DNA of 44,314 nt, taken from Phycisphaerae bacterium. GTDB lineage: Bacteria > Planctomycetota > Phycisphaerae > Sedimentisphaerales > Anaerobacaceae. The notes beneath the pieces were generated by a model, which saw only the letters and a program-made list of their open reading frames with translations, ran no database searches and was not told the DNA's origin. Both the position numbers and the translations under genes were made by a program. Numbering within the stretch: the stretch's first letter is position 1; each line of letters starts with the position of its first letter. Below are positions 8,756-41,184 of this stretch, in pieces. The DNA lies in the NCBI GenBank assembly GCA_012744475.1, contig JAAYBV010000102.1:1-44314 (forward strand), in the 5' to 3' direction.

Positions 8756-10198
8756 ATGAACTGCGCAGAATGTAAAGAGCAGCTCGTTCTCCACATCGAG
8801 CAACTGCTGGACGACGCTCAGGAGCGGCAACTCGCCGAGCATCTGGAGAGTTGTCGATCGTGCCAGGCGGAACTGAGGGAGCTCGAGATCCTTCAGGGGC
8901 GTCTGGTCCGCAACGGCGAGGCCGCGCGAGGCGACCTCGAAGATCAAGTGATGAACCGAATCATTCGCGAACAGAACGTCAGGCTCAAGAGCGCTGCGCA
9001 AGCCAGCGCGGGCCTGCGACTAAGGAGGTTTCTTATGAGAAGTCCCATGACAAGAGTAGCCGCCGCGGCGGTCGTGGCCGTCGCGTGCGTGCTTGCCTTT
9101 TCCATGTGGAGGGACACGACGTCGGTCACCCTGGCCGCGGTCGTTGCCAAGGTCGAGCAGATTCAGGCCTATTTGTACAGGGAAAGTGCCACCACCCACG
9201 ATCAGAGTCAAGGGGACCGTACGCTGGAGGCTACGGTCCTCACGTCGAACGAGTACGGCGTGAGAAGCGAACAGACCACGGTGAATGCCGCCGACGGGCG
9301 CCAGACGCGGTTGCTGTCGTACCTTCTGCCCCGGAAGAAGAGCATCGTGATCCTTAACCTGACTGAGAAACAGTATGGGCGCCGGGAACTGGACGACGCG
9401 ACCCTGGCGAATATGAAGACCGACAATCGCGATCCGCGTGAGATGATCAAGAGATTTCTGGCCTGCGAGTACAGCGAACTCGGAACAGAGGTCATCGACG
9501 GGGTGACGGCGCAGGGGTTCGCGACGACCGATCCGGCCTACCTGGGCAACACCGCCGAGAATCTGTCGGCTCGACTGTGGGTGGACGTCGAGACCTGGCT
9601 GCCGGTGCGATACGAACTGGAGATGGATATTCGCGAGGGCGTACGCATCAGCGTCGTGCAAGAAGGCTATCAGTGGAGCATCCCGGTCGTTGCCGGCGAT
9701 TTCGAGCCGGACATCCCCGCTGACTTCACAACCGACCAGATGGATGGCACGCCCATGCCGTCCTACAGCGATCAGGGTGTGATCGACGCGCTGCGCATCG
9801 CGGCGGACTTCACTGGGCGGTATCCTGAAACCCTCGGTCACGACGCTCTGCAGCAGCTTGTCAAGCAGATGACGGAGGCTCTGAACACGAGCGATCGTCC
9901 GGCTGTCCAACAATTCCGCGAGGAGCTCAAGAGCGCCGGTTCCAGAGAGGCGGCCATGCAGGTCAGCCAGGGGCGTTTCATGAAGCTCATGACGCTGACC
10001 ATGTTCCCCCTGATGCTGGCCGGACAGGGGGCCGAACCGGTCTACCACGGATATGTAGTTACGCCGAGCGATGCGGAGCTGCCGCTGATGCGATGGAAGG
10101 TCTCCGACGGGCAGTACCGCGTGATCTTCGGCGACTTGCACGCCGAGACGGTCACAGCCGAGGTGCTGGCCGAACTCGAAGCGGCCTTGCCGCAGTAA
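8756..10198 (+). CDS. Anti-sigma factor with zinc-finger (zf-HC2), TM helix and large periplasmic domain (pair 2)
   Basis: This 480-residue protein starts MNCAECKEQL and has the zinc anti-sigma motif His29-x3-Cys33-x2-Cys36 (HLESCRSC), with extra Cys3 and Cys6. A helix at about 98-117 (RVAAAAVVAVACVLAFSMW) crosses the membrane. The periplasmic part begins TLAAVVAKVEQIQAYLYRES and contains a LolA-like beta region with LWVDVETWLPVRYELEM. The last 130 residues (from VIDALRIAADF to YRVIFGDLHAETVTAEVLAE) match the end of the pair-1 anti-sigma protein in pattern. The two pairs therefore look like diverged duplicates. It should bind the sigma factor encoded immediately upstream. A hairpin terminator follows 25 bases after the stop. 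Confidence 0.85.
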   Translation: MNCAECKEQLVLHIEQLLDDAQERQLAEHLESCRSCQAELRELEILQGRLVRNGEAARGDLEDQVMNRIIREQNVRLKSAAQASAGLRLRRFLMRSPMTRVAAAAVVAVACVLAFSMWRDTTSVTLAAVVAKVEQIQAYLYRESATTHDQSQGDRTLEATVLTSNEYGVRSEQTTVNAADGRQTRLLSYLLPRKKSIVILNLTEKQYGRRELDDATLANMKTDNRDPREMIKRFLACEYSELGTEVIDGVTAQGFATTDPAYLGNTAENLSARLWVDVETWLPVRYELEMDIREGVRISVVQEGYQWSIPVVAGDFEPDIPADFTTDQMDGTPMPSYSDQGVIDALRIAADFTGRYPETLGHDALQQLVKQMTEALNTSDRPAVQQFREELKSAGSREAAMQVSQGRFMKLMTLTMFPLMLAGQGAEPVYHGYVVTPSDAELPLMRWKVSDGQYRVIFGDLHAETVTAEVLAELEAALPQ

Positions 10199-29536: not shown

Positions 29537-30610
29537 ATGACGGGGCAGCGGCAAGTCAATCGTCGTCAGATTCTCAGCGGGTTTGGAGCTGGAGCGGTCG
29601 CGGCCGCCCTGGGGCCGTGGGGCGTCAAAGGCCGGGTGGTTCTGGCTCAATCTCAGATCGACCAGGCGCAAGTGGTTGGCGGGAAGTTGTTTGCGCGATC
29701 GGCTCCGCCCGCCAGGATTGGCTTGGTCAAGGGCAACGACCGGCGGGACATCGTCTATCAGGCCCTCAAGCACATTGAGGACGAGGTTCTGGCCTCAATC
29801 GGCGACAAGAAGATCCTGATTAAGCCCAATTTCGTCAGCACGCGTCGCGATCTGTGCGCGACGCACGTCGATGCGGTGCGCGGGATTCTCGATTTTCTCA
29901 CGCCCCATCATAAAGGGCAGATCATGATCGGCGAGTCGACCGCCTTCGGGGGCGGGACGCACGAAGGCTACGTCAACTACGGGTACCTGGCCCTGGAGAA
30001 GGAGTATAACGTCAAGCTGATCGATCTGAACGAGCAGCCGTGGGTGTATCGCTACGTCTTTGGCAAAGGACACAAGCCCACGCCGATCCGCATCATCTCG
30101 ACGTTCCTTGACCGGGACACCTACGTCATTTCGGCCGCCAGGATGAAGACGCACGACCGGGCGGTGACGACGCTGTCGCTCAAGAACGTCCTGCTGGCGG
30201 CGCCGCTGAACGACTACAAGACCAACGACAAATGGCTGACACATGCGGAGTACAACTTCTCACCCAAGGCACTGCTGCACTTCAACATGTTTCACCTGGC
30301 CCAGGAGATCTATCCTGACCTGGGGGTGATCGATGGATTCGTGGCGATGGAGGGCAACGGCCCCGTGGGCGGCACGCCGGTGGACGCGCGGGTGGCGCTG
30401 GCCAGCCTCGACCCGTTGGCGCTCGATGTGCTGACCACGAAACTGATGGGCTTTGACCCCGGCAAGATCATGTACCTGACGTCGCTGGCCGAGGCGGGGA
30501 TGGGACAGGGCGACCTTTCGAAGGTCACGGTCCTGGGCACGCCGGCCGAGGAGTGTCAGTTTCGCTTCAAGCCTCACGAGAGGCTTATCGAGCCTTACGG
30601 CTTGAGCTGA
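29537..30610 (+). CDS. Tat-exported DUF362 domain protein
   Basis: The 357-residue product starts with a twin-arginine signal (VNRRQILSGFGAGAVAAALG), so it is probably folded before export. The body matches DUF362: ARIGLVKGNDRRDIVYQAL, DKKILIKPNFVSTRRDLCAT, MIGESTAFGG, RMKTHDRAVTTLSLKNVL, GVIDGFVAMEGNGPVGG and ALASLDPLALDVLTTKLMGF. DUF362 proteins often carry 4Fe-4S clusters, but no CxxCxxC run is present here. The biochemical function of the family is not settled. AGGAGAG precedes the ATG. The next gene begins 15 bases after the stop, so the two are likely cotranscribed. Confidence 0.85.
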   Translation: MTGQRQVNRRQILSGFGAGAVAAALGPWGVKGRVVLAQSQIDQAQVVGGKLFARSAPPARIGLVKGNDRRDIVYQALKHIEDEVLASIGDKKILIKPNFVSTRRDLCATHVDAVRGILDFLTPHHKGQIMIGESTAFGGGTHEGYVNYGYLALEKEYNVKLIDLNEQPWVYRYVFGKGHKPTPIRIISTFLDRDTYVISAARMKTHDRAVTTLSLKNVLLAAPLNDYKTNDKWLTHAEYNFSPKALLHFNMFHLAQEIYPDLGVIDGFVAMEGNGPVGGTPVDARVALASLDPLALDVLTTKLMGFDPGKIMYLTSLAEAGMGQGDLSKVTVLGTPAEECQFRFKPHERLIEPYGLS

Positions 30611-30625
30611 GCGGAAAGGGCGGTT

Positions 30626-32869
30626 ATGCAGGGGATGGAGGACCGGGGACCGCTGGGACATGACGGCCGGAACCTTGCTCTGCTCATCGTCCTGGCGCTC
30701 GTCCTGGGAATCTACCTGGCGATTGTCAACCCGTGTATCTCCAGAGATGGTGTCCTCTATATCAACATGGCGAGGACCCTCTCGCACGATCCCCTGCGCA
30801 CGGCACAGACGTATCCCGCCGGCTATCCGTTTCTGCTGCATGCCGCCCATTGGGTCGGGGTCCTGTTCGGGGCCGGTGATACGCCCATGGCGTGGGTCAT
30901 TCCATCGCTGGCGGTGACGCTTCTGCTGCGGCTGTTGGCGCTGATACCGCTGTATCTTCTCAGCCGGATGCTGGTGGGCGCGCGAAGGGGTTTCTGGGCT
31001 GTCCTGATCCTGATCGTCTTGCCGTATCCGGCCCACAACGGCAGCGACGTGCTGCGGGAATGGCCGTTTCTGTTCTTCCTGGCCCTGGGTGTCTGGCTCA
31101 CGTTTCTGGCCTTTCGCCGCCGGCAATGGTGGCTGTTCGGGCTGATCGGTCTCGACGCGGGACTGGGGTATCTGATCCGCCCGGAATGTGCCCAACTGGT
31201 TGTCTACGCCCTCATCGGTCTGGCGGTCGTCCTGGTGACACTGCGGTCTCAGTGTCCGCCCGAACCGCGGCTTTGTGCGCGGGCCTTGGTCGGGGCCGCC
31301 GTTCTCCTGCTCCTGGGTTTCGCGATTCCGGCCGCGCCTTATGTAACCTGGGCCGGACTGCCGACCGCTCGGAAGCTGGACCCTCCTGAGTTCAACCGCG
31401 CGCCGGTCATCGCGTCTGTCGGCGGTCGGAGCGTACACTACGAGCCGCTGCAATTCGAGGTTGCCGCCGGAGCGCTTCTTGAAATGCCGATCGAAGCATT
31501 CGATCCCGACGGTAACGCGATGACGTATTCCGTTGTCGCGGCACCGGTCGGCACGCGGCCTGTGTATCGTCTCCGATTGAGCGGAACGGGCGACAGTCTT
31601 TGGACAATCTCTGACCGCCAGAAGAGCCTGCTCTTGACTCGCTACCGCCCGGGCGTGTGGGAGTACGATGGCATCGCCGGTTACGTCTACGCCGAGCCGA
31701 ACGCGACAGAGGGGCTCTTGCCGGTCTATGGTTTCTGGTCGCCGGTGCTCAACAGGCATTTCTACACGCTCTCCGAATCGGAGCGAAAGGCGGTAGTCCA
31801 GGGCGAACCACAGAACCAATGGCAGAGCGAGGGTGTGGCGTTCTACGCCTTCGGCGAGGCCCGCCCGCTGGCCGACGCCATCGCCGTCTATCGGTTCCGC
31901 GATCGAGCAGGTGAGCGCACGTGGGCCATCGAAGGCGACGGGGACCTGGTGCGCGAGGCCTTCGCATGGTACGCCCATGCGGGCTCGGCGCCTCCGGCCG
32001 GGCTGACTGTGGACGGCAATCTCGTTCGGTGGCGTCCGCGACCGGACCAGCGGGGCATCCACCAACTGAACCTCATTGTGGACGACGGACATCTGCAAAG
32101 TGGCCAGTTGGTTCAGATCGAGGTGGGCGATACCCGGCCGATGCACGCGGGTGTGCTGGCGGCAGACGGCCCCGGCCGCCTGGCGGCGTTTGTGCACGTG
32201 GCGAACTTGATCTTTCGCAGTATCAGCGACAACCTGATGCAGTACTTCCTGGCGCCCTTGTGCATAGGCTTCTGGTATCGGCTGCGCCGCGAGGCCGGAG
32301 CGTATGAGCGGGCGTTGATGATCGCCATCGTCTCTGTGAACATCCTGCTGATGCTCGGCCGGTACTTGTGGATCCAGCCGGTCGTGAGCAGCCGCTACAG
32401 CCTCGGACTGGTCGCCCTGACCATCGCCTACGTGCCGGTGGGCCTGGACGTGATCGCCCAATGGCTTGCCAGATTCACCTCGGGCCACGGCGCGCAGGCG
32501 TCGGGCGAGCGAGCGCTGCAACGGCGCTGGTTCTGCCTGCTGCTCGCGATCGGCGTGGGAGTCTGTGTTCCAAAACTCCTGTCACCTGGGGACGACAAAG
32601 ACCGGGCCTTGCTCGCGGCGGCCCGTTGGCTCCGGCACAACACCACGGCCGACGAGGTGATCGCGGCGGCCGACCGCCGTATCGGTTTCTACGCCGAGCG
32701 GACGCAGGTGCCCTACGAACAGTCCGTCGATCTGCGGGAGGTGGATCACATCGTGACGGTGTCGCGTTCCGACGAACCCGACGCCGTGGCGTCGGGTTGG
32801 GTCCCCGTGTTTTCTATCCCGTTCAGATCCGACGGCGAAAGCCGACTGATGATCCTCAGACGCCCGTGA
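30626..32869 (+). CDS. PMT/GT39-like membrane glycosyltransferase with inserted cadherin-like/DUF5648-like periplasmic module
   Basis: The 747-residue product opens with about six to seven membrane helices. Helix 1 is followed by a PMT-like loop (CISRDGVLYINMARTLSHDP, then TYPAGYPFLL), where the acidic residue is expected to be catalytic. A soluble block of about 245 residues (256-501) comes next, then further helices (520-605 and 633-652) and a C-terminal soluble part (TADEVIAAADRRIGFYAERT). The soluble block starts as a cadherin-like Ig domain (FDPDGNAMTYSVVAAP) and finishes as one (APPAGLTVDGNLVRWRP, LNLIVDDGHLQSGQLVQIEV). In between (about 313-452) lie three repeats of the DUF5648 type (VYGFWSPVLNRHFYTLSESE, WQSEGVAFYAF). 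The donor and target are unknown. It may modify exported or surface molecules. It ends only 19 bases from the convergent GT2 gene. Confidence 0.72.
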   Translation: MQGMEDRGPLGHDGRNLALLIVLALVLGIYLAIVNPCISRDGVLYINMARTLSHDPLRTAQTYPAGYPFLLHAAHWVGVLFGAGDTPMAWVIPSLAVTLLLRLLALIPLYLLSRMLVGARRGFWAVLILIVLPYPAHNGSDVLREWPFLFFLALGVWLTFLAFRRRQWWLFGLIGLDAGLGYLIRPECAQLVVYALIGLAVVLVTLRSQCPPEPRLCARALVGAAVLLLLGFAIPAAPYVTWAGLPTARKLDPPEFNRAPVIASVGGRSVHYEPLQFEVAAGALLEMPIEAFDPDGNAMTYSVVAAPVGTRPVYRLRLSGTGDSLWTISDRQKSLLLTRYRPGVWEYDGIAGYVYAEPNATEGLLPVYGFWSPVLNRHFYTLSESERKAVVQGEPQNQWQSEGVAFYAFGEARPLADAIAVYRFRDRAGERTWAIEGDGDLVREAFAWYAHAGSAPPAGLTVDGNLVRWRPRPDQRGIHQLNLIVDDGHLQSGQLVQIEVGDTRPMHAGVLAADGPGRLAAFVHVANLIFRSISDNLMQYFLAPLCIGFWYRLRREAGAYERALMIAIVSVNILLMLGRYLWIQPVVSSRYSLGLVALTIAYVPVGLDVIAQWLARFTSGHGAQASGERALQRRWFCLLLAIGVGVCVPKLLSPGDDKDRALLAAARWLRHNTTADEVIAAADRRIGFYAERTQVPYEQSVDLREVDHIVTVSRSDEPDAVASGWVPVFSIPFRSDGESRLMILRRP

Positions 32870-32888: not shown

Positions 32889-33782
32889 TCACTTGCCGGG
32901 GCCTGGTTTGGCGTTGAAGAGCCAGCGACGCCAGGCGAGCATCGCCGTCAGGAAGATCCCGACGTAGACGACCAGGTTCGTCAGACAGGAGCACTCTCGG
33001 GCGAAGTGCTTTTTGTGGAACAGGACCATCGCCCGGTAGAACTCGTACGTCGTCTTGCGGTTGTTGGTCCGGCAGCCCACGCCCTTGTAGTGGATAATCT
33101 GCGCGTGCGGGTAGTACATCACCTTCCACCCGGCCTTCTTGGCGCGAACGCACCAGTCCATGTCTTCGCCGTAGATGAAGAAATTCTCGTCGAGCACGCC
33201 GATGGCGTCCACGACGCTCTTGCGAATCACGAGGAACGCCCCGGAGACGGCATCGACCTCGTTAGGCTCATTCGGGTCGAGGTAGGTCAGATTGTAACGG
33301 GCCATCGTCTTGCTGTTGGGGAACAGACGGCTCAGGCCGGTGAGGCGATAGAAAGCGACCTTTGGCGTCGGGATGCTTCGCCGGCAGGCCAGTTGGAGCG
33401 AGCCGTCGGCGTTCAGGACACGACAGCCGGAGACGCCGACGTCGGGGTGTTCGTCCATGAACCGGACCATCTTGTCGATCGCGCCGTCCCGGACGACCGT
33501 GTCGGGATTGAGCAGCAGGATGTAGTCGGATGTGCACTGGATGATGGCCTGGTTGTTGGCTTTGGGGAAGCCGACGTTTTGATCGTTCTCGATCAGGTGG
33601 ACGTCCGGGAAGTTCTGTTTGACCATCGCAACGCTGCCGTCGCGGGAATGGTTGTCCACTACCCAGATCTCGAAGGCCGCCTCGGTCGTCTCGCGACAGA
33701 CCGACTCGATGCACTCCTTCAGGAGCGCCTCGACGTTGAAGCTGACGATCACGATGGCAATGGAAGATTGGCCTTGCGGCAT
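32889..33782 (-). CDS. GT2-family glycosyltransferase (rhamnosyltransferase-like)
   Basis: The 297-residue protein has a GT-A fold: IAIVIVSFNVEALLKECIES, VVDNHSRDGS, ENDQNVGFPKANNQAI and the metal-binding LLLNPDTVV. An acceptor-side region follows with SGAFLVIRKSVVDAIG and FFIYGEDMDWCVRAKKAGW. This matches the WbbL/rhamnosyltransferase-like GT2 group. A hydrophobic helix near the C-terminus (LTNLVVYVGIFLTAMLAW) probably anchors it to the inner membrane. It is the last gene of the polysaccharide run. It adds a sugar to the growing repeat unit; which sugar cannot be read from the sequence. Confidence 0.88.
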   Translation of the reverse strand: MPQGQSSIAIVIVSFNVEALLKECIESVCRETTEAAFEIWVVDNHSRDGSVAMVKQNFPDVHLIENDQNVGFPKANNQAIIQCTSDYILLLNPDTVVRDGAIDKMVRFMDEHPDVGVSGCRVLNADGSLQLACRRSIPTPKVAFYRLTGLSRLFPNSKTMARYNLTYLDPNEPNEVDAVSGAFLVIRKSVVDAIGVLDENFFIYGEDMDWCVRAKKAGWKVMYYPHAQIIHYKGVGCRTNNRKTTYEFYRAMVLFHKKHFARECSCLTNLVVYVGIFLTAMLAWRRWLFNAKPGPGK

Positions 33783-33875
33783 AGGTTCCCGGCGTCAGAG
33801 AATCCCTGGTTCATGATACGGCCGTGAGAACATCCCACGACATGCTGCACGGCGTCCCTGGCGATCCAGCTTACC

Positions 33876-34880
33876 TCAGAAGAGCTTGTCCTTCCAGGTG
33901 TCAGGCGTCTTGTCGTTGATGATCTCCAGATCGATGTGGTACTTGAAGGGTCTGGGGCCGCGCTGGCGAATGTGCTCGATGACCGCTGCCAGGCCGTCTC
34001 TAAGCTTGACCTGGGTCTCGTAGTTCAACAGCCTCCTGGCCTTGTCAGCCGAGCAGTTGGCCAGCACGACCTCCTGTGGCCGGCTCCGGACGTACACGGG
34101 CCTGACCTCGAAGCTCAGCAGCTCTGCGATGGTCTCGGCCAGCTCGCGGATCGTGATGAACTCGTCGTCCGGCCCGATGTTGATGACCTCGCCGTTGACC
34201 GACGGCTCGGTGGCCAGCCGCTTGAGAATCTTCACATCGTCCTGGATGAAGCTGAAGCACCGCTTCTGGTTGCCGTCTCCATAGATGATCGGCTGGCGGC
34301 CCTGGAGCATGAGGTTGGCCATGATGCTGGCGACGTTGCGATAGGGATCATCGTACTTCTGCCTGGGACCGATGATGTTGTGCGGGACCGCGATCACGTA
34401 TTCCATCCCATGCACGCCCGCGAGGTTCTCCAGCAGGGCCTCGGAGCTGAGCTTGCCGATGCCGTACGGATCCTGGGGCCGAGGAATCATGTCCTCGGTG
34501 AACGGGACCGTGTCCTGGGTTCCGTAGCGCGCCATGCTCGAACAGAAGATGAACCGCCGCACGTTGTTGGCGATCGCGGCGCTGATCATCGAGACGGAGG
34601 CCTGAACGATGTTCTTGGTGACGAAGAAGGGGCTGAACACGCTCAGGCCCTCGTACGCGCTGGCGGCGCAGTGGTAGACGACGTCGCAGTTCCGGGTGAT
34701 CTTGACCATCGAATTGTGGTACGTGCAGTCGTACTGGTGGAACTCGACTCCGGTCGGGACGTTGTCGAGATAGCCGCCCGTGAGATTGTCGCATCCGACG
34801 ACCTCGTGGCCCTCGGCCAGAAAGGCATCGGCCAGATGACTGCCCAGAAAACCAGCGACGCCGCTGATAAAGACCTTCAT
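33876..34880 (-). CDS. NAD-dependent epimerase/dehydratase (extended SDR) for nucleotide sugars
   Basis: The 334-residue protein has the Rossmann motif GVAGFLGSHLADAFLAEGHE, with an acidic residue (VGCDN) suited to NAD. The active site shows SSMARYG and the YxxxK pair in DPYGIGKLSSE. The substrate part reads PHNIIGPRQKYDDPYRNVAS and RCFSFIQDDV. Relatives include UDP-glucose 4-epimerase and UDP-glucuronate decarboxylase; the exact reaction is not settled. GGAGG lies five bases before the ATG. It follows the GT4 gene after 193 bases and precedes the GT2 gene by 93 bases. It probably makes a sugar nucleotide for the neighbouring transferases. Confidence 0.85.
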   Translation of the reverse strand: MKVFISGVAGFLGSHLADAFLAEGHEVVGCDNLTGGYLDNVPTGVEFHQYDCTYHNSMVKITRNCDVVYHCAASAYEGLSVFSPFFVTKNIVQASVSMISAAIANNVRRFIFCSSMARYGTQDTVPFTEDMIPRPQDPYGIGKLSSEALLENLAGVHGMEYVIAVPHNIIGPRQKYDDPYRNVASIMANLMLQGRQPIIYGDGNQKRCFSFIQDDVKILKRLATEPSVNGEVINIGPDDEFITIRELAETIAELLSFEVRPVYVRSRPQEVVLANCSADKARRLLNYETQVKLRDGLAAVIEHIRQRGPRPFKYHIDLEIINDKTPDTWKDKLF

Positions 34881-35073
34881 TCATGCCTCCGACGGATGAA
34901 TACGCCGACATCGTGCTCCCGATCCACGACGGCCGGCATCGTGATGAGGAAGCTCTGTACGAGATCCTCCTCAGATACCGCTTGGCATGGACCGGGCTCG
35001 TACGCACAAGCCGACCGACGCTGAATCGAGCGCAACAGTATACCGCCAGCGACGGGTCGCGTAAATAGCGGCC

Positions 35074-36288
35074 TCAGTCGTTTTCGGCATCCCGCCGGTG
35101 GTCATTTTGCCGGTGTGCCCGACGTCGGTCGAGCGTGGCATAAAGCTCCTGCTGCCGCCGCGCGATCCGGTCCAGGGAGAATTCCGTCTGGACGCGCCGG
35201 CGGGCCGCGCCGGTCATGGCTTCGACCTGTTCCGGCGTTTTCGCCAGGTGATCGAGCACCGCCCGGGCGATCGCCTCGGGGTCGTGTGGCGGCACGACGG
35301 TTCCAGTCAGGCCGTCGGCGACCAGCTCCGAGACGGCGCCGACGTCGGTGGCCACCACGGGCACCTTCATGGCCATCGCTTCGAGCACCGCGTTCGGGCA
35401 GGATTCCCGGATCGACGCCAGGACAAAGACGTCCAGCGCCGCCAGCATCGATGGAATGTCGTCGCAAAACCCCGTACAGATCACGTCGCGTTCGAGGCCC
35501 AGGGCGGCAGTCAGTTGTTGCAAGCGCTCCCAGTAGCCGGGGGCGGTCGTCAATCTTCGTCCGACCACGATGAACCTGGCGTCCGGGGTCCGCTCCTTGA
35601 TCCGGGCGGCGGCCTTGAGGAAGTCCTCATGTCCCTTGAAGGGGTTCAGGTTGCCGATGATGCCTATGAGCGGGCCGCCCGGCGGGATGTGCCACTGCTC
35701 TCGTACGCGGCGCCGGGCCTCGGCGTCATAGCGATCCGGATCGAACACCGTCGTATCGACGCCGGTGTGGAGCACCGTGGCCTTCTGCTGCAACAGCGGG
35801 TGCGAAGCTGTGCGGGCCTGGCGAAGGCACTCGCCCTGGATGACGATCCGCGTCGCAAGCCGGGCCACCAGGGGTAGGAGCATGAGCTTGACCGTCCCGG
35901 GCAGATGGTCGTTGTAACACCACAGAACCGGAACGCGGCACAGCCAGGCCGTCAGGGCGGGCGGCACGTTCAACACGCCGTCCACGTCGACGACGTCGAT
36001 CTGCCTGGATCGGATGGTCCTTCGGATGCGCAAGAGGTTCCACGGAAGCCAGAGCAGGAAGGCGAGCAGGTTGAGGATCGGGCGCCGACGGCGGAGAAAC
36101 AGCAGATGCCTCAGATGGACATGCTCGAAGGGACAGGCCGGTCCCGATTCATCCGTCTCGGGGCCGAACAGGAAGATCGTCTCTATGCCCTCGGCTTGCA
36201 GGCGTTCCGCGATCGCGAAGCTCAGACGGTGCGGCCCGCCGAAACGCGGGTCCGCGATGCACTTCAATATCCTCAGTCGGACATTCAT
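35074..36288 (-). CDS. GT4-family glycosyltransferase
   Basis: The 404-residue protein has a two-domain GT-B layout. The N-terminal domain has FGGPHRLSFAIAERLQAEGI, the glycine-rich acceptor loop. The C-terminal domain has IGIIGNLNPFKGHEDFLKAA, then RFIVVGRRL and the donor-site run SIRESCPNAVLEAMAMKVPV, followed by ATDVGAVSELV, with the usual E-x7-E pair. It probably transfers a nucleotide sugar with retention to a lipid-linked oligosaccharide on the inner face of the membrane. It starts six bases after the polymerase stop without a clear ribosome binding site, suggesting coupled translation. Confidence 0.88.
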   Translation of the reverse strand: MNVRLRILKCIADPRFGGPHRLSFAIAERLQAEGIETIFLFGPETDESGPACPFEHVHLRHLLFLRRRRPILNLLAFLLWLPWNLLRIRRTIRSRQIDVVDVDGVLNVPPALTAWLCRVPVLWCYNDHLPGTVKLMLLPLVARLATRIVIQGECLRQARTASHPLLQQKATVLHTGVDTTVFDPDRYDAEARRRVREQWHIPPGGPLIGIIGNLNPFKGHEDFLKAAARIKERTPDARFIVVGRRLTTAPGYWERLQQLTAALGLERDVICTGFCDDIPSMLAALDVFVLASIRESCPNAVLEAMAMKVPVVATDVGAVSELVADGLTGTVVPPHDPEAIARAVLDHLAKTPEQVEAMTGAARRRVQTEFSLDRIARRQQELYATLDRRRAHRQNDHRRDAEND

Positions 36289-36294
36289 CGAGCG

Positions 36295-37548
36295 CTATAG
36301 GCCGTCAGCCCCCGTCTCCGGAAGCCGGGAGCGGAAGAGAAGATATCCGAAGAACGCCTGCAAGTAGTACTGGTTGGATATCAGCAGATGATCGTAGAAC
36401 GAGAAGACAATCACGATCAGAACGATCAGATAGAAATTCAGATAGGGGACAGACTGTCCGGCCCGCGCCCGCAAAGCCGCCGACAGAAGCCCCAGCAGAT
36501 ACGGGAGGACCGCCAGACCGACAAAACCGAAATCCTCGTAAATGTTCCGCAGGTAGGTGTACACGTTCGCCATGTACGGAATGTAGATCTTCTCCATGTG
36601 CATGATGCTCATGGCGTCGGGCGGAGGGACCAGATGAGCCCGGGCCAGCCACTTGTAGATGGGCAGAAACACGCTCTCTCCGAGACGCCAGTTGCCGTCG
36701 TGCGTCTTGAGAAACTCGCTGAACGCCGCCACCGGAGAGGCGATGTACCAGTAGATCGAAAGGAGGAATCCCCTCAAGCGGTGGGCGGGATCGTAATTGG
36801 CGCCTTTCTGGAGCAGAATGTCGACCAGCAGGAACAGGATGACCAGAGCCACGGCCGGAACCACCAGATGCATGGCCACCTCCCGGGTCCGCCGGCTGCG
36901 GTAATGCTGATGCATGAACAGATAGGACAGCACCAGGAACGCCAGATTGATCGTGACTTCCTTCCGGGCGAGGCTGAGCAGGCCCACGCCCAGCGCGGTC
37001 AGCAGGAACAGCGTCACCGTCCCGTATCGCCACCGGTCGCGGCCGAGATAGAGCAGGATGCCGAGCAGGACGAAGCCGATGGAAAAGATGCTGCAAGTCA
37101 CCGTGATGGCGATGGTGCAGGCCCGCATGCCGATCATGTCGGGAGTGATCGGGCGCGTGACGGTCTCCCGCCACAGGATGGAATCGGTGACGAGGCGCAG
37201 CAGATCGATTTCGTGTGTTCTGGCCAGGACCACCACGCGGAGGGCGCAGAATGCCACGGCCAGCAGGCCGAAAACGAGCGTGATGCGCAAATAGCGTCGG
37301 AGCGACTTGGCGCTCAGCACAGGAGCGGCGGACCAATAGAGTCTATCGGGGTCGGTCTTTGTGCGTCGTATGAGGTTCCATGTCAGGTATCCCAATACGA
37401 AGGTCGCGACGCTCAGACCTACCGCCCAGTAGACCCGAGGGGTCGGTGCAGGGAAGAACGCCTTGTTCACTCCGGCCACATACGAGACCGTGACCGAGAC
37501 CCATATGGCCAGGTAGAGGAACAGCGGATTCACGAGATATCGAGCCAT
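36295..37548 (-). CDS. O-antigen/oligosaccharide repeat-unit polymerase (Wzy-like)
   Basis: The 417-residue protein has about 10-11 membrane helices (for example LFLYLAIWVSVTVSYVAGV, ITVTCSIFSIGFVLLGILLY, NFYLIVLIVIVFSFYDHLLI) and a large periplasmic loop after helix 8 (AFSEFLKTHDGNWRLGESVF to YTYLRNIYEDFGFVGLAVLP). This layout, with Tyr/Arg-rich loops and low sequence conservation, is typical of Wzy-type polymerases. The neighbouring flippase and transferases support the call. ATG 37548 was chosen because it begins the first helix; a longer frame to 37686 would run far into the upstream gene. It overlaps the GT2 gene upstream by 19 bases. Confidence 0.75.
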   Translation of the reverse strand: MARYLVNPLFLYLAIWVSVTVSYVAGVNKAFFPAPTPRVYWAVGLSVATFVLGYLTWNLIRRTKTDPDRLYWSAAPVLSAKSLRRYLRITLVFGLLAVAFCALRVVVLARTHEIDLLRLVTDSILWRETVTRPITPDMIGMRACTIAITVTCSIFSIGFVLLGILLYLGRDRWRYGTVTLFLLTALGVGLLSLARKEVTINLAFLVLSYLFMHQHYRSRRTREVAMHLVVPAVALVILFLLVDILLQKGANYDPAHRLRGFLLSIYWYIASPVAAFSEFLKTHDGNWRLGESVFLPIYKWLARAHLVPPPDAMSIMHMEKIYIPYMANVYTYLRNIYEDFGFVGLAVLPYLLGLLSAALRARAGQSVPYLNFYLIVLIVIVFSFYDHLLISNQYYLQAFFGYLLFRSRLPETGADGL

Positions 37549-38543
37549 GTGTGTACCTGTTCTCTCCTGCCGAGGCGGCCGGAGAGCCCATCGGCAATCG
37601 CGCGGACGACCAGGGCCGTCCCGCGCCGGCCATGCCGCAGCCCGAGCGCCAGACTCAGGACAATCAACTTGAGATTCCTCAGCCATCGGAAGTTGAAATG
37701 GCCATTAACGACCAGCATATTGCGGATGTGATAGTACTGTTTCCAGTCGAAGGCGTCAACGCGCGGCCGCGGATGGTACGCCTTGCTGTCGACGACGGTA
37801 TACAGTTCGAGCCGTCCGGCGGCGCGCCAGAGGAAGTCCTTCTCGTCGCCTCGGATGAAGAACTCCTTGTTGGGCAGGCCGATCTCTCCGAGCGCGCGGG
37901 CGGGAACGAGTGTCCCATTGAACGGACAGGCCCAGCGGTAGACTCCATCGCGCACCTTGTCGGTCACGTCCGACAGGCGCCAGTGGTAGACGCCGAGTCG
38001 GGGATGGCCCTTCCTGGTGATCTCCTGAAGCGGAAAGGCCAGCGTGTCACCGTCCGCGTGGTCCTGCGACAGGACGGTGCAGTTCAGCAGGAAGGGCCGG
38101 GTCGAGGTCTTCGTCAGAATGTCTTTCCTGGCGACCAGGGCTTCCAGTGCATCGCAGGAAGGTAGCAGGTCGTCGTCCATCAACCACAGCCAGTCGAAGC
38201 CTGCCGCAGCGCTGCGCTTCATCCCCTCGTGAAAGCCGCCCGCACCTCCGGTGTTCTCGGGCATTTTCACATAGTGGATCTCGACACACCCACTTTTCAA
38301 TGACGGTGGTTCGACGGTCGTGACCTGTTCGTGTGCTTCTTCGGTGCGGGTCCCATTCGGCGTGATCATTCCCCTGTCCCGCAGCGCCTCGCAGGTCCCG
38401 TCCGTGGAGTCGTTGTCGATGATGTAGATGGCGTCGAGTCGACGGCTTTGCCCCAGCAGCGCTTCGAGGCACCGCAGCAACAGGATCTTCCTGTTGTACG
38501 TGACCACAATCGCCGCGATTCGTTCTCGTCGTCTCTCAGCCAT
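37530..38543 (-). CDS. GT2-family glycosyltransferase, galactofuranosyltransferase-like
   Basis: The 337-residue protein has a GT-A fold: RIAAIVVTYNRKILLLRCLE, IIDNDSTDGT, the nucleotide-binding NTGGAGGFHEGMKRS and metal site WLWLMDDDLLP, followed by FIRGDEKDFLWRA. The N-x-GG-x-GGF motif and the DDD triad are those of GlfT1-like enzymes, which use UDP-galactofuranose. The gene overlaps glf by eight bases, so donor synthesis and transfer are probably coupled in translation. A hydrophobic stretch near the end (LRNLKLIVLSLALGL) may touch the membrane. The galactofuranose donor is an inference from motif and neighbour. Confidence 0.82.
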   Translation of the reverse strand: MAERRRERIAAIVVTYNRKILLLRCLEALLGQSRRLDAIYIIDNDSTDGTCEALRDRGMITPNGTRTEEAHEQVTTVEPPSLKSGCVEIHYVKMPENTGGAGGFHEGMKRSAAAGFDWLWLMDDDLLPSCDALEALVARKDILTKTSTRPFLLNCTVLSQDHADGDTLAFPLQEITRKGHPRLGVYHWRLSDVTDKVRDGVYRWACPFNGTLVPARALGEIGLPNKEFFIRGDEKDFLWRAAGRLELYTVVDSKAYHPRPRVDAFDWKQYYHIRNMLVVNGHFNFRWLRNLKLIVLSLALGLRHGRRGTALVVRAIADGLSGRLGRREQVHTWLDIS

Positions 38544-39633
38544 CGGTTCGGATCTCTTCGTACAGAGCCAGGGCGCGCTCGACGACCTGATCCATGTTCA
38601 GATACTCGTACTGAGCCAGTCGGCCGACGAAGTGAACACGCTCCAGCTCATCGGCTCTGGCCTTGTACCGCTCGCACAGCTGGCGGTTGGCCTCGGTCAG
38701 GACAGGATAGCATGGACGCCCCTCGGCCGCTCCATATTCGTAGCAGATCGTTGTCTTGGGATGCTTCTGTAGCGTCAGGTGTTTGAACTCCGTGATGCGG
38801 ATGTAGTCCTGTTCGCCTGGATAGTTGACCACGCCGGCGTCCTGGAATCGCTCCACGTCGAGTGTCTCGAATCGGAACGCAAGGCTCCGGTAAGGCAGGC
38901 GGCCGTAGGTGTAATCAAAGTACTCGTCGATCGGCCCCGTATAGATGAGCCGGCCGAATCGCTCCGACGTCGCGACGGATCGATAGTCCGTGCCGAGGCG
39001 AACAGTGATGTCGGGCGACGCGATCATGCGTTCGAACATGGGTGTGAAGCCGTCCTTGGGAACGCCCTGGCACGGATCGTCAAAATAGCGTGTGTCCCTG
39101 TCGAAGCGGATGGGCACCCGCCGGGTGACCTGGGGCGCCAGGTCGTGGGGGTAGAGGCCCCATAGTTTCTTCGTGTAGTTCTCGTAGAACAGCTCATACA
39201 ACTCCTGGCCGATCTGGGAGACCACAACGTCGCGCGCGTTCTCGATCTTCTCGATCGGCACGCGGCGTTCGGCGTAGAACGCGCGAGCCTGCTCGGCCGT
39301 GAACGGGCGGCCATACAATCGTTCCAGCGTGTCGAGATTGATCGGCAGACAGACTACCCGGTCTGCGACCTGCGCCAGGACGCGATGGACGTACCCGTTC
39401 CAGTCCGTGAACCGGCTGACATAGTCCCACACCGGTCTGAGGCGGGTGTGGAAGATGTGCGGACCGTACTTCTGAACGACGAGGCCGTGTGCGTCGACGA
39501 AATCGTGGGCATTGCCCCCGATGTGATTGCTGCGTTCGACGAGCAAGACCTTCTGCCCGAGCCCGTTGGCCAGTCTTTCGGCCAGGACGCACCCTGCCCA
39601 GCCGGCGCCGACGATCAGGCAATCATAGACCAT
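38536..39633 (-). CDS. glf: UDP-galactopyranose mutase
   Basis: The 365-residue flavoprotein starts with the FAD-binding motif DCLIVGAGWAGCVLAERLA. Family signatures follow: ERSNHIGGNAHDF, KYGPHIFHT, FTDWNGYVHRVLAQV, PINLDTLERLYG, ENYTKKLWGLYPHDLAPQVT, RVPIRFDRDTRYFDD, PKDGFTPMFERM and YTGPIDEYFDYTYGRLPYRS. Arg residues in the last blocks contact the substrate in characterised enzymes. It interconverts UDP-galactopyranose and UDP-galactofuranose. Length is normal for the bacterial family. GGAG lies eight bases before the ATG. It overlaps the flippase gene by 11 bases and the galactofuranosyltransferase-like gene by eight. This makes galactofuranose a likely part of the surface glycan. Confidence 0.95.
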   Translation of the reverse strand: MVYDCLIVGAGWAGCVLAERLANGLGQKVLLVERSNHIGGNAHDFVDAHGLVVQKYGPHIFHTRLRPVWDYVSRFTDWNGYVHRVLAQVADRVVCLPINLDTLERLYGRPFTAEQARAFYAERRVPIEKIENARDVVVSQIGQELYELFYENYTKKLWGLYPHDLAPQVTRRVPIRFDRDTRYFDDPCQGVPKDGFTPMFERMIASPDITVRLGTDYRSVATSERFGRLIYTGPIDEYFDYTYGRLPYRSLAFRFETLDVERFQDAGVVNYPGEQDYIRITEFKHLTLQKHPKTTICYEYGAAEGRPCYPVLTEANRQLCERYKARADELERVHFVGRLAQYEYLNMDQVVERALALYEEIRTDG

Positions 39634-40927
39634 GCTCTGGCTCCGCAGTTCGGTGACGTCGAAAGACGTCCAGCCCGTTCCGTTGCAGGGCGACGTACGT
39701 CGCGATCATGATCGCAACCTCCGTCAGCAGCACGGCGATGCTGACGCCGATATGGCGCAGCGGAACAACCAGGGCGAAGACCAGAACGACATTCACCACG
39801 CCCGCGACGGCGAGGATCCTGGTCAGGGTCTTCTTCAGTCCGAAGTTGATCATGATCTGCACGCCGAAGATGTTGCTCAGGCTGCACACGAACGGCAGCG
39901 GCGAGAGAATCCGTATCACGGCCACGCTGGCGCCGAACTGCTCGCCCAGGATCAGCCGGCTGAGCGGTCCGGCCGCGAAGAACAGCCCCACCGACAGGAC
40001 CAGCGTGACGACGCCCACGATCTCGGTCATGCGCGCCGTGAACGCCAGGGCCGCCTCTTTCGATTCGGACGCCAGCTTGCCGACATACGGGTACACCGCC
40101 TGCGAAAGGGGCAACTGGAGTCCCTGGATCGCTCGCACGATCTTCTCGCCGGCGACATAGTACGCGACGAACGTGTTGTTCGTGAACAGCCCCAGGATGA
40201 CGATGTTGCTCGTGGTGTACAGCGTGATCGACATCTTGGAGACGAACAAATGCCAGCCCTCGGCAAGCTCCTGTCTCAGGAGGGCTCGCGACGGCAGGGC
40301 AAAGCGAACGGGGAACTCGCGCAGGGCCACGAGCAGCCCGGCGACGCCCATGGCGATTGTCCCGACGGACTGTACTACCGGAACGTAGACGTAATGATCG
40401 CTCTGTCGGATGAACGCGAAGATCGCGACGGTGATCGCCAGCTTCGAGAGAATCGTCAGGATGGCGGTGTACTTCATCCGTTCGAGGCCCTGAAACAGCC
40501 AGATCGGGAACAGGCACTGCCCGATGACGGTGCCGAACGTCAGCAGGTAGACCGGCCAGTCGCCTCGCAGTCGGGGCACGGCGAGGACCGCCGCCACCAG
40601 GGCGAAGAAGCTCGCGACGGTCAGCAGCAGCTTCAGGAGCATCACCGCCGAGAAGATCTCCGACAGCCTCCTCGGATCGTTCCGGCACAAGGAGATCTCC
40701 CGCGTCGCGGACAGATTGAATCCGTAGTCGGTCAGGATGACCAGATACACGGCGATGGCATGGGCCAGCTCGACCAGTCCGAAACGCGACGGGCCCAGGA
40801 CGCGGACGAGGTACGGCAGCGTGATCAGCGGCGCCAGATACGTCGCTACCTGAAGGACGCTCAGCGAGAAGAAGTTGCCCAGGATCGTCTGGTGCTTTTG
40901 CCACGTCGCTCTGAGCGCCTTTGACAT
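39623..40927 (-). CDS. Polysaccharide flippase (Wzx-like, MOP superfamily)
   Basis: The 434-residue protein has about 12 membrane helices and the Wzx N-terminus: GNFFSLSVLQVATYLAPLIT, LPYLVRVLGPSRFGLVELAH, then DYGFNLSATREIS. These are typical of MATE-like exporters that turn lipid-linked repeat units across the inner membrane. It is the first gene of the minus-strand polysaccharide run. ATG 40927 was chosen because it lies downstream of the promoter at 41037-41009 and begins the family-like part; a longer frame to 41104 crosses that promoter. No strong ribosome binding site is visible. Confidence 0.86.
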   Translation of the reverse strand: MSKALRATWQKHQTILGNFFSLSVLQVATYLAPLITLPYLVRVLGPSRFGLVELAHAIAVYLVILTDYGFNLSATREISLCRNDPRRLSEIFSAVMLLKLLLTVASFFALVAAVLAVPRLRGDWPVYLLTFGTVIGQCLFPIWLFQGLERMKYTAILTILSKLAITVAIFAFIRQSDHYVYVPVVQSVGTIAMGVAGLLVALREFPVRFALPSRALLRQELAEGWHLFVSKMSITLYTTSNIVILGLFTNNTFVAYYVAGEKIVRAIQGLQLPLSQAVYPYVGKLASESKEAALAFTARMTEIVGVVTLVLSVGLFFAAGPLSRLILGEQFGASVAVIRILSPLPFVCSLSNIFGVQIMINFGLKKTLTRILAVAGVVNVVLVFALVVPLRHIGVSIAVLLTEVAIMIATYVALQRNGLDVFRRHRTAEPEHGL

Positions 40928-41008
40928 CTTGGGGGGCAGCCCTTCTGTGCAGGTCGGCCAGCCAACAGGGCATCCGTCGTCGGCGCTGCGGCCGTGGCCA
41001 AAGGCGCA

Positions 41009-41037
41009 AGTATAGGTCTGCAAAAGGCCTATGTCAA
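41009..41037 (-). promoter_or_regulatory. Near-consensus promoter of the polysaccharide operon
   Basis: On the minus strand TTGACA (41037-41032), a 17-base spacer and TATACT (41014-41009) match 11 of 12 consensus bases. The leader to the flippase ATG would be about 75 bases. The divergent LptC-like gene starts 147 bases to the right. Confidence 0.75.
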
Positions 41038-41184
41038 GAGCACCGCAGCCGGAATGCAGCAGACGCGGCCATTCTGACCAAGTTGCCCTGAATTTCTTGG
41101 CCAAAATCCTGAGCTTGCCCAGATTACCTCAATTAACACAGGCGGATTAACCGATACAGACGGAAGAACGATAGGAGCAGATCC

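Follow-up and report, generated by a model that had tools for sequence, protein, structure and literature searches.

A DUF5648 repeat domain set within a putative split Ig-like domain in the TM7-TM8 outer loop of a planctomycete PMT_2/GT-C-like membrane protein

How a polytopic membrane protein comes to carry a large soluble block among its helices, and what such a block might do there, is the question raised by a 747-residue reading frame on contig JAAYBV010000102.1 of a Phycisphaerae bacterium (assembly GCA_012744475.1). The 44,314-nucleotide stretch analysed here, referred to as the window, had been given a preliminary description that placed DUF5648-like repeats inside a cadherin-like domain inside a PMT-like membrane protein. 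The frame and its coordinates proved correct, and the three-level nesting is borne out at the level of sequence by Pfam matches, scans of joined flanks and topology: a DUF5648 domain of three repeats lies inside what is most likely one Ig/cadherin-like domain, itself set in the outer loop between TM7 and TM8 (Table 1). An antisense frame at 30260-32521 (753 aa) is assumed to be a by-product of a GC-rich gene.

Table 1. Features of the nested protein, its surroundings in the window, and polytopic proteins of other loci that carry DUF5648 C-terminally (coordinates of the latter are those of the locus)
Feature	Coordinates	Strand	Basis
PMT_2/GT-C-like polytopic membrane protein with nested insert, 747 aa (whole gene)	30626-32869	+	ORF list, Pfam
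Seven-TM half, residues 1-246; TM centres ~25, 104, 124, 155, 176, 196, 229	30626-31363	+	hydropathy
D41 in outer loop 1, D141/E145 in outer loop 2 (residues 1-246 part)			alignment of 51 rows
N-terminal half of Ig/cadherin-like domain, residues 252-308, Big_9 profile ~1-43	31379-31549	+	profile scans
DUF5648 domain, three repeats, residues 309-452	31550-31981	+	Pfam, alignment
DUF5648 repeat 1, residues about 309-363	31550-31714	+	boundaries by eye
DUF5648 repeat 2, residues about 364-417	31715-31876	+	boundaries by eye
DUF5648 repeat 3, degenerate, residues about 418-452	31877-31981	+	boundaries by eye
C-terminal half of Ig/cadherin-like domain, residues 453-505, Big_9 profile ~46-84	31982-32140	+	profile scans
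Unconserved linker, residues 506-520	32141-32185	+	13% mean identity to 11 homologues
TM8-TM11, residues 521-655; centres ~545, 571, 603, 644	32186-32590	+	hydropathy
C-terminal soluble part, residues 656-747, outer side by topology	32591-32866	+	hydropathy
DUF362 protein, Tat-like signal, 15 bases upstream of the transferase	29537-30610	+	Pfam
Convergent polysaccharide cluster	32889-41104	-	Pfam, hydropathy
GT2	32889-33782	-	cluster
Epimerase	33876-34880	-	cluster
GT4	35074-36288	-	cluster
Polytopic candidate polysaccharide polymerase	36295-37686	-	7 hydrophobic peaks; recurs in cluster
GT2	37530-38543	-	cluster
UDP-galactopyranose mutase	38536-39633	-	cluster
Wzx-type flippase	39623-41104	-	cluster
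Polytopic protein, C-terminal DUF5648, PMT_2 31.5 bits (over cut-off)	L045:3438-5594	-	Pfam
Polytopic protein, C-terminal DUF5648, PMT_2 18.6 bits (below cut-off)	L118:3461-5608	-	Pfam
Polytopic protein, DUF5648 only	L134:128-2722	+	Pfam
Polytopic protein, DUF5648 only	L148:929-3619	+	Pfam
Polytopic protein, DUF5648 only	L112:3367-4740	-	Pfam

The enclosing protein matches PMT_2 at residues 97-203 (2e-7, 31.7 bits against a cut-off of 26.1; Pfam, E up to 1), and the same family is found at 33.3 bits in an inserted homologue (L014) and at 32.9 bits in an insert-less one (L023). Besides PMT_2 and DUF5648, the intact protein gave two more Pfam matches at E up to 1, both below cut-off. Mean hydropathy over 46 rows, five distant or partial rows being left out, has 12 peaks, of which that at position 74 in outer loop 1 is weak; the remaining 11 correspond to TM1-TM7 ahead of the insert and TM8-TM11 behind it, and with the PMT_2 score they uphold the earlier view of a PMT-like membrane protein. 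Lysine plus arginine per residue is 0.20-0.41 in the predicted inner loops and 0.02-0.17 in the outer loops, with the exception of the three residues between TM5 and TM6, which include the conserved R185 and reach 0.33. The TM count and the K/R-rich inner loops thus place the insert in the outer loop between TM7 and TM8, and the soluble block that had been described between membrane helices lies outside.

Position 41 is D in all 51 rows of the transferase alignment and position 145 is E or D in all of them, while 49 of 51 have E at position 187, and at position 141 there are 45 rows with D and four with E. The conservation of positions 41, 145 and 187 indicates that the acidic residues of GT-C type are intact beside the insert, and the frame probably encodes an extracytoplasmic membrane enzyme that attaches sugars outside the cell. 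The PMT family itself (PF02366) scores 11.1 bits on the 747-aa protein, below its cut-off of 22.7, and MIR has no match in it (Pfam, E up to 1), the TM7-TM8 loop being occupied by Ig and DUF5648; on these two results PMT proper (GT39) was set aside as the identity of the protein, and membership of GT39 proper is not indicated. No solved GT-C structure in the PDB was matched by sequence with a profile of five insert-less homologues.

The two ends of the block had been proposed to be halves of one cadherin-like domain. In the intact window protein no Ig domain is matched (Pfam, E up to 1), nor does either half alone match at E up to 10; when residues 252-308 are joined to 453-505, Big_9 (PF17963) reaches 22.0 bits (cut-off 23.6) and He_PIG 15.5. 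Six of the 13 complete joined flanks were scanned, the window included, and all six match Big_9, four over the cut-off (24.4, 24.7, 31.1 and 24.9) and two under it (the window at 22.0 and another at 22.9); the contig-cut L020 was left out of the joined-flank profile. Single halves of three homologues give sub-cut-off matches at most (best He_PIG 20.2 against a cut-off of 24), and any homologue matches to Big_9 or He_PIG place N halves in the first part of the profile and C halves in its later part. Joining the halves in swapped order lowered the Big_9 score in four of four cases (22.0 to 14.1, 24.4 to 16.7, 24.7 to 18.8 and 31.1 to 23.5, the last just 0.1 under the cut-off), with no more than a single half in the best-scoring stretch (N half ~1-43, C half ~46-84). 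Indeed, intact L014 carries weak sub-cut-off matches on both flanks (E 0.025-0.042, 15.2-15.5 bits), with Cadherin_4 and the first part of Big_9 at 243-299 and He_PIG 29-95 at 426-489. The complementary profile halves and the swapped-order control rule out chance resemblance to an Ig domain, and the earlier proposal is supported: the flanks are most likely parts of one domain of Big_9 type, cut near profile position 44, close to its middle. AlphaFold2 models from alignments only three rows deep have a pLDDT of 35.7 for the whole protein and 40.2 for the block, and searching the block against the PDB by sequence gave one chance-level match (E 0.08).

Between these flanks, DUF5648 (PF18885) is matched at residues 307-409 (1e-19, 71.5 bits against a cut-off of 25, profile positions 42-134 of 134). 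The three repeats of the preliminary description are all present by alignment, although the third is degenerate. DUF5648 has been described as a three-bladed propeller and suspected O-antigen binder (PMC12853789), and as a (beta3alpha)3 domain with aromatic grooves in GH70 enzymes (PMC11299179); a GH25-DUF5648 endolysin is also described (PMC13379245). In the window protein one groove may be lost with the degenerate third repeat. The earlier statement that the domain is not known from glycosyltransferases has to be amended: GH70 glucanotransferases are reported to carry it (PMC11299179), and this clade has five other polytopic proteins with DUF5648, two of them with PMT_2 matches (one over cut-off). 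In these open-licence PMC papers, the DUF5648 passages do not describe a GT-C enzyme with the domain.

The search for further GT39-like proteins with this insert, proposed in the preliminary description, returned the same arrangement in 14 of the 161 genomes of the order when the best 16 candidates per genome were scored with a profile of the block. Nested blocks score 277-419 bits in these genomes and the other listed matches 120 or less, and the arrangement persists in homologues as distant as about 40% identity. Across 392 genomes sampled evenly from the phylum, the block profile (E 1e-15, best six candidates per genome) matched only the window's own. The nearest relatives by best segment lie in a Planctomycetota MAG (JAAYBA010000403.1, 73%) and a Phycisphaerales MAG (LVBB01000144.1, 70%), which are loci L010 (genome G003) and L011 (G002) and were counted once. 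An assembly artefact is ruled out, since 14 genomes share the arrangement, and homologues organised as separate fused genes, which the preliminary description had considered, appear neither in the loci nor in the transferase trees.

A family-level search of 89 genomes found some match in 50, those to DUF5648 alone included. Thirty loci were taken, 14 with an Ig half and DUF5648 at one site and 16 without the insert. The second Ig half is complete in 13 of the 14; in the remaining one (locus L020, genome G073) the contig ends within it. Insert-less PMT_2 proteins of the same family, order and class (~510 aa) have the same transferase with the same conserved acidic residues; in most of them the stretch that matches residues 241-536 is 49-68 aa, as against 296 in the window protein, the exceptions being one of 100 aa and one cut off at 22. 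L029, of the insert-less set, is cut off at the loop and was not counted. An Ig domain without DUF5648 was not seen in the examined transferase loci.

A transferase tree built without the insert columns separates 12 inserted from 14 insert-less rows (26 rows, support 100/100), and with 25 class-level rows added, the 12 inserted rows are still set apart from 39 insert-less ones by one branch (100/99). The contig-cut or partial L020, L021, L029 and L034 were left out of these trees, whose root is a midpoint used for drawing only and is not inferred. The insert is therefore one change on the enzyme tree. Since the rows without the insert span several families of the order and class, gain is the simpler direction, and a single gain in the ancestor of three genera is the natural reading; loss in the insert-less rows is a possible alternative. 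Some outgroup branches are long, which leaves the exact sister of the inserted clade unsure.

Several neighbouring cases can be added. Two genomes of the same genus, G001 and G004, have four and nine DUF5648 matches and no full nested block by the block profile; in G004 a frame of 813 aa contains a short transferase match (residues 7-133), which may be a broken copy or result from assembly errors. In the insert-less transferase L035:1145-3208 (+), a Laminin_G_3 domain lies within the C-terminal soluble part; its sister in the tree, L180 (93/80), has a similar-looking stretch at the same place; these may represent another accessory-domain insertion in the transferase family, the L180 stretch being judged by look. 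Viral contigs, scanned to deepen the alignment, yielded no relative and one DUF5648 locus, L161:1401-2000 on IMGVR_UViG_3300005647_000002, a DUF5648 protein with a hydrophobic start. An alignment that included it was discarded, as one L161 repeat fell on the Ig flank. Four records of Listeria phages have DUF5648 matches too, at 34% identity.

Comparing the window with its two near relatives gave dN/dS values (Nei-Gojobori) of 0.15-0.18 in DUF5648, 0.22-0.26 in the Ig halves and 0.19-0.21 in residues 1-246; for the pair of relatives the corresponding values are 0.25, 0.16-0.18 and 0.23. Across these three pairs, with the values compared as such, purifying selection acts on the insert as it does on the catalytic part. 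Nested DUF5648 copies also share invariant W, H and Y positions in eight conserved blocks, and W371, H378, Y380, W448 and H451 are conserved residues of the block. These observations bear on the idea that the insert binds no ligand and is there as a structural spacer or for dimerisation, to which the degenerate repeat would lend itself; an insert with dN/dS as low as that of residues 1-246, with such invariant positions and beside a linker of just 13% identity, makes this idea improbable.

The genomic surroundings point towards polysaccharides in part of the clade. The cluster's GT2 and GT4 lie downstream in seven of the 11 inserted loci examined (G000, G002, G003, G005, G037, G078 and G079), four of them from the window's genus, and DUF362 lies upstream within ~1.4 kb in six of the 11, the window included. 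Neither cluster nor DUF362 was found in the stretch read in G075, G077, G072 and G073, the downstream side being readable in the first three and off the contig in G073; the 11 loci leave out G074, G076 and G080. Among insert-less regions the cluster occurs in none of four, two of which have weak GT hits. In the window, ORFs 36295-37686 (-) and 8756-10198 (+) have no Pfam match. DUF5648 itself recurs close to some nested transferases: L048:2219-3886 (+) in G075 encodes a DUF5648 and metallophosphatase protein with a hydrophobic N terminus ~1.2 kb upstream, with an opposite ORF between, and DUF5648 ORFs also lie within ~1.3 kb in G073:C79 and G076:C173.

PMT_2 covers many lipid and polysaccharide transferases, and this, together with the polysaccharide genes at seven of 11 loci, counts against a protein glycosyltransferase whose block recognises protein acceptors, perhaps the same cell's DUF5648 or Ig-like proteins. 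We regard such an enzyme as unlikely, although the PMT_2 match itself, the further DUF5648 proteins in the same genomes and the MIR-type position, which in PMTs serves protein O-mannosylation (PMC7759382, PMC12705809), speak for it. From its position, domain kind, selection and gene neighbourhood, the insert would most likely read the acceptor or product glycan, by analogy with CBM-bearing GT-C enzymes.

How DUF5648 is used elsewhere in the clade offers a further alternative. At E up to 1e-8, 18 of the order's 161 genomes have PF18885 matches, the richest having 19, and each of the 14 nested-enzyme genomes has at least five, the enzyme's own counted; the window's genome (5.75 Mb) has eight, including the nested one. 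The 109 distinct DUF5648 ORFs in the fetched loci, a subset of the places found, comprise the 14 nested enzymes, five other polytopic proteins with C-terminal DUF5648 and 90 that are not polytopic, of which 70 have one or two hydrophobic peaks. Of 77 near-full copies outside the nested enzyme, 49 have the domain's end no more than 15 aa from that of the ORF. These patterns would suit a general surface-retention domain, which on the enzyme would tether the transferase to the envelope polymer holding secreted DUF5648 proteins, with no part in the choice of substrate. Against this stand the placement of the insert in a loop bordering the active site rather than at a terminus, the conserved residues proper to the nested copies, and their separate grouping in a quick DUF5648 tree of few columns (10 rows, SH-aLRT 99); on balance, simple retention seems a minority prospect, if a somewhat better one than a protein acceptor.

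In the same tree, the C-terminal polytopic copies form another group (4 rows, SH-aLRT 82); rows spanning fewer than 110 profile positions were dropped, which keeps 10 of the 14 nested and four of the five C-terminal polytopic copies. All five of the latter proteins belong to one genus (g40). The two groups suggest that DUF5648 was joined on two occasions, with weaker support for the second, which would be a joining to another GT-C-like protein of the clade. A profile of the joined Ig domain matched none of the 109 fetched ORFs apart from the 14 nested enzymes; with the single match among the best candidates of the 392 phylum genomes, this lends no support to a nested module that spreads widely as a mobile unit.

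Taken as a whole, the explanation we favour, to which we give about an even chance, is a GT-C enzyme whose nested insert binds the acceptor or product glycan. An extracytoplasmic GT-C of PMT_2 kind would take sugar from a polyprenyl-linked donor, and its TM7-TM8 outer loop would have acquired an Ig/cadherin-like domain interrupted by DUF5648 with its three blades. The former may serve as a stalk with both ends returning to the membrane, holding DUF5648 above the active site, where it could bind the acceptor or the freshly modified glycan, most likely the surface polysaccharide from the neighbouring cluster. DUF5648 would then keep the chain close for repeated transfer, so that the enzyme might be processive. 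On the donor side, the GtrA family has no match in the window's genome, which counts against this explanation. So do the degenerate third repeat, the four of 11 loci in which the cluster was not found, the lack of a sequence match to a solved GT-C structure, and the GT136 case, whose CBM binds but is not essential (PMC11127046).

A broader proposition, which we put forward tentatively and with less than even confidence, is that bacteria evolved their own MIR-like device, in which a threefold-repeat glycan-binding module, brought over a GT-C active site by insertion into an Ig domain of the TM7-TM8 loop, holds the polysaccharide product, and that DUF5648 joined a second GT-C-like family separately. 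If so, the pairing of enzyme and glycan reader would be a repeatable solution. GT-C enzymes with sugar-binding accessory domains are already known; what this protein would add is an unrelated repeat domain, inside an Ig domain, in the very loop that eukaryotic PMTs use for MIR. Triple nesting, the MIR parallel and a second joining of DUF5648 to a GT-C-like protein were not met in searches of open-licence PMC papers. The case offers a clean test of whether acceptor-reading modules generally dock in the TM7-TM8 loop, the close relatives without the insert serving as natural controls. Knowing what the soluble block binds would help in finding a function for DUF5648 and for the envelope glycans of planctomycetes, which are little studied.

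Among known systems, the protein would work like MIR- or CBM-bearing GT-C enzymes rather than as a new kind of system. In GT-C enzymes the TM7-TM8 loop borders the acceptor and donor sites (PMC7801869), and in the PMTs of yeast and human (GT39), which are 11-TM GT-C enzymes, MIR is likewise a threefold-repeat extra domain in the outer loop between TM7 and TM8, with sugar sites reported (PMC7759382, PMC12705809). MIR is a beta-trefoil, whereas the window protein has DUF5648 inside an Ig-like domain, and as Pfam finds no MIR in it, the likeness is a parallel and homology is not shown. EmbA/B/C and AftD, named as further CBM-bearing GT-C cases beside GT136 ORF12, similarly carry an accessory extracytoplasmic domain, and acceptor polysaccharide binding is reported for EmbC, AftD and ORF12 (PMC11127046). 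The CBM of ORF12 binds unmodified O-antigen yet is not essential, and it differs in place, lying at residues 503-652 outside the TM7-TM8 loop (PMC11127046), while EmbB has its periplasmic domains between TM1 and TM2 and at the C terminus (PMC7305291). The DUF5648 domains of BSAP-2/3 and GH70 enzymes belong to the same Pfam family, PF18885, and in predicted models form a three-bladed beta-alpha propeller with suspected glycan recognition (PMC12853789, PMC11299179). Those domains are accessories of secreted proteins, C-terminal in the BSAPs, whereas the DUF5648 of the window protein is inserted inside another domain of a membrane enzyme.
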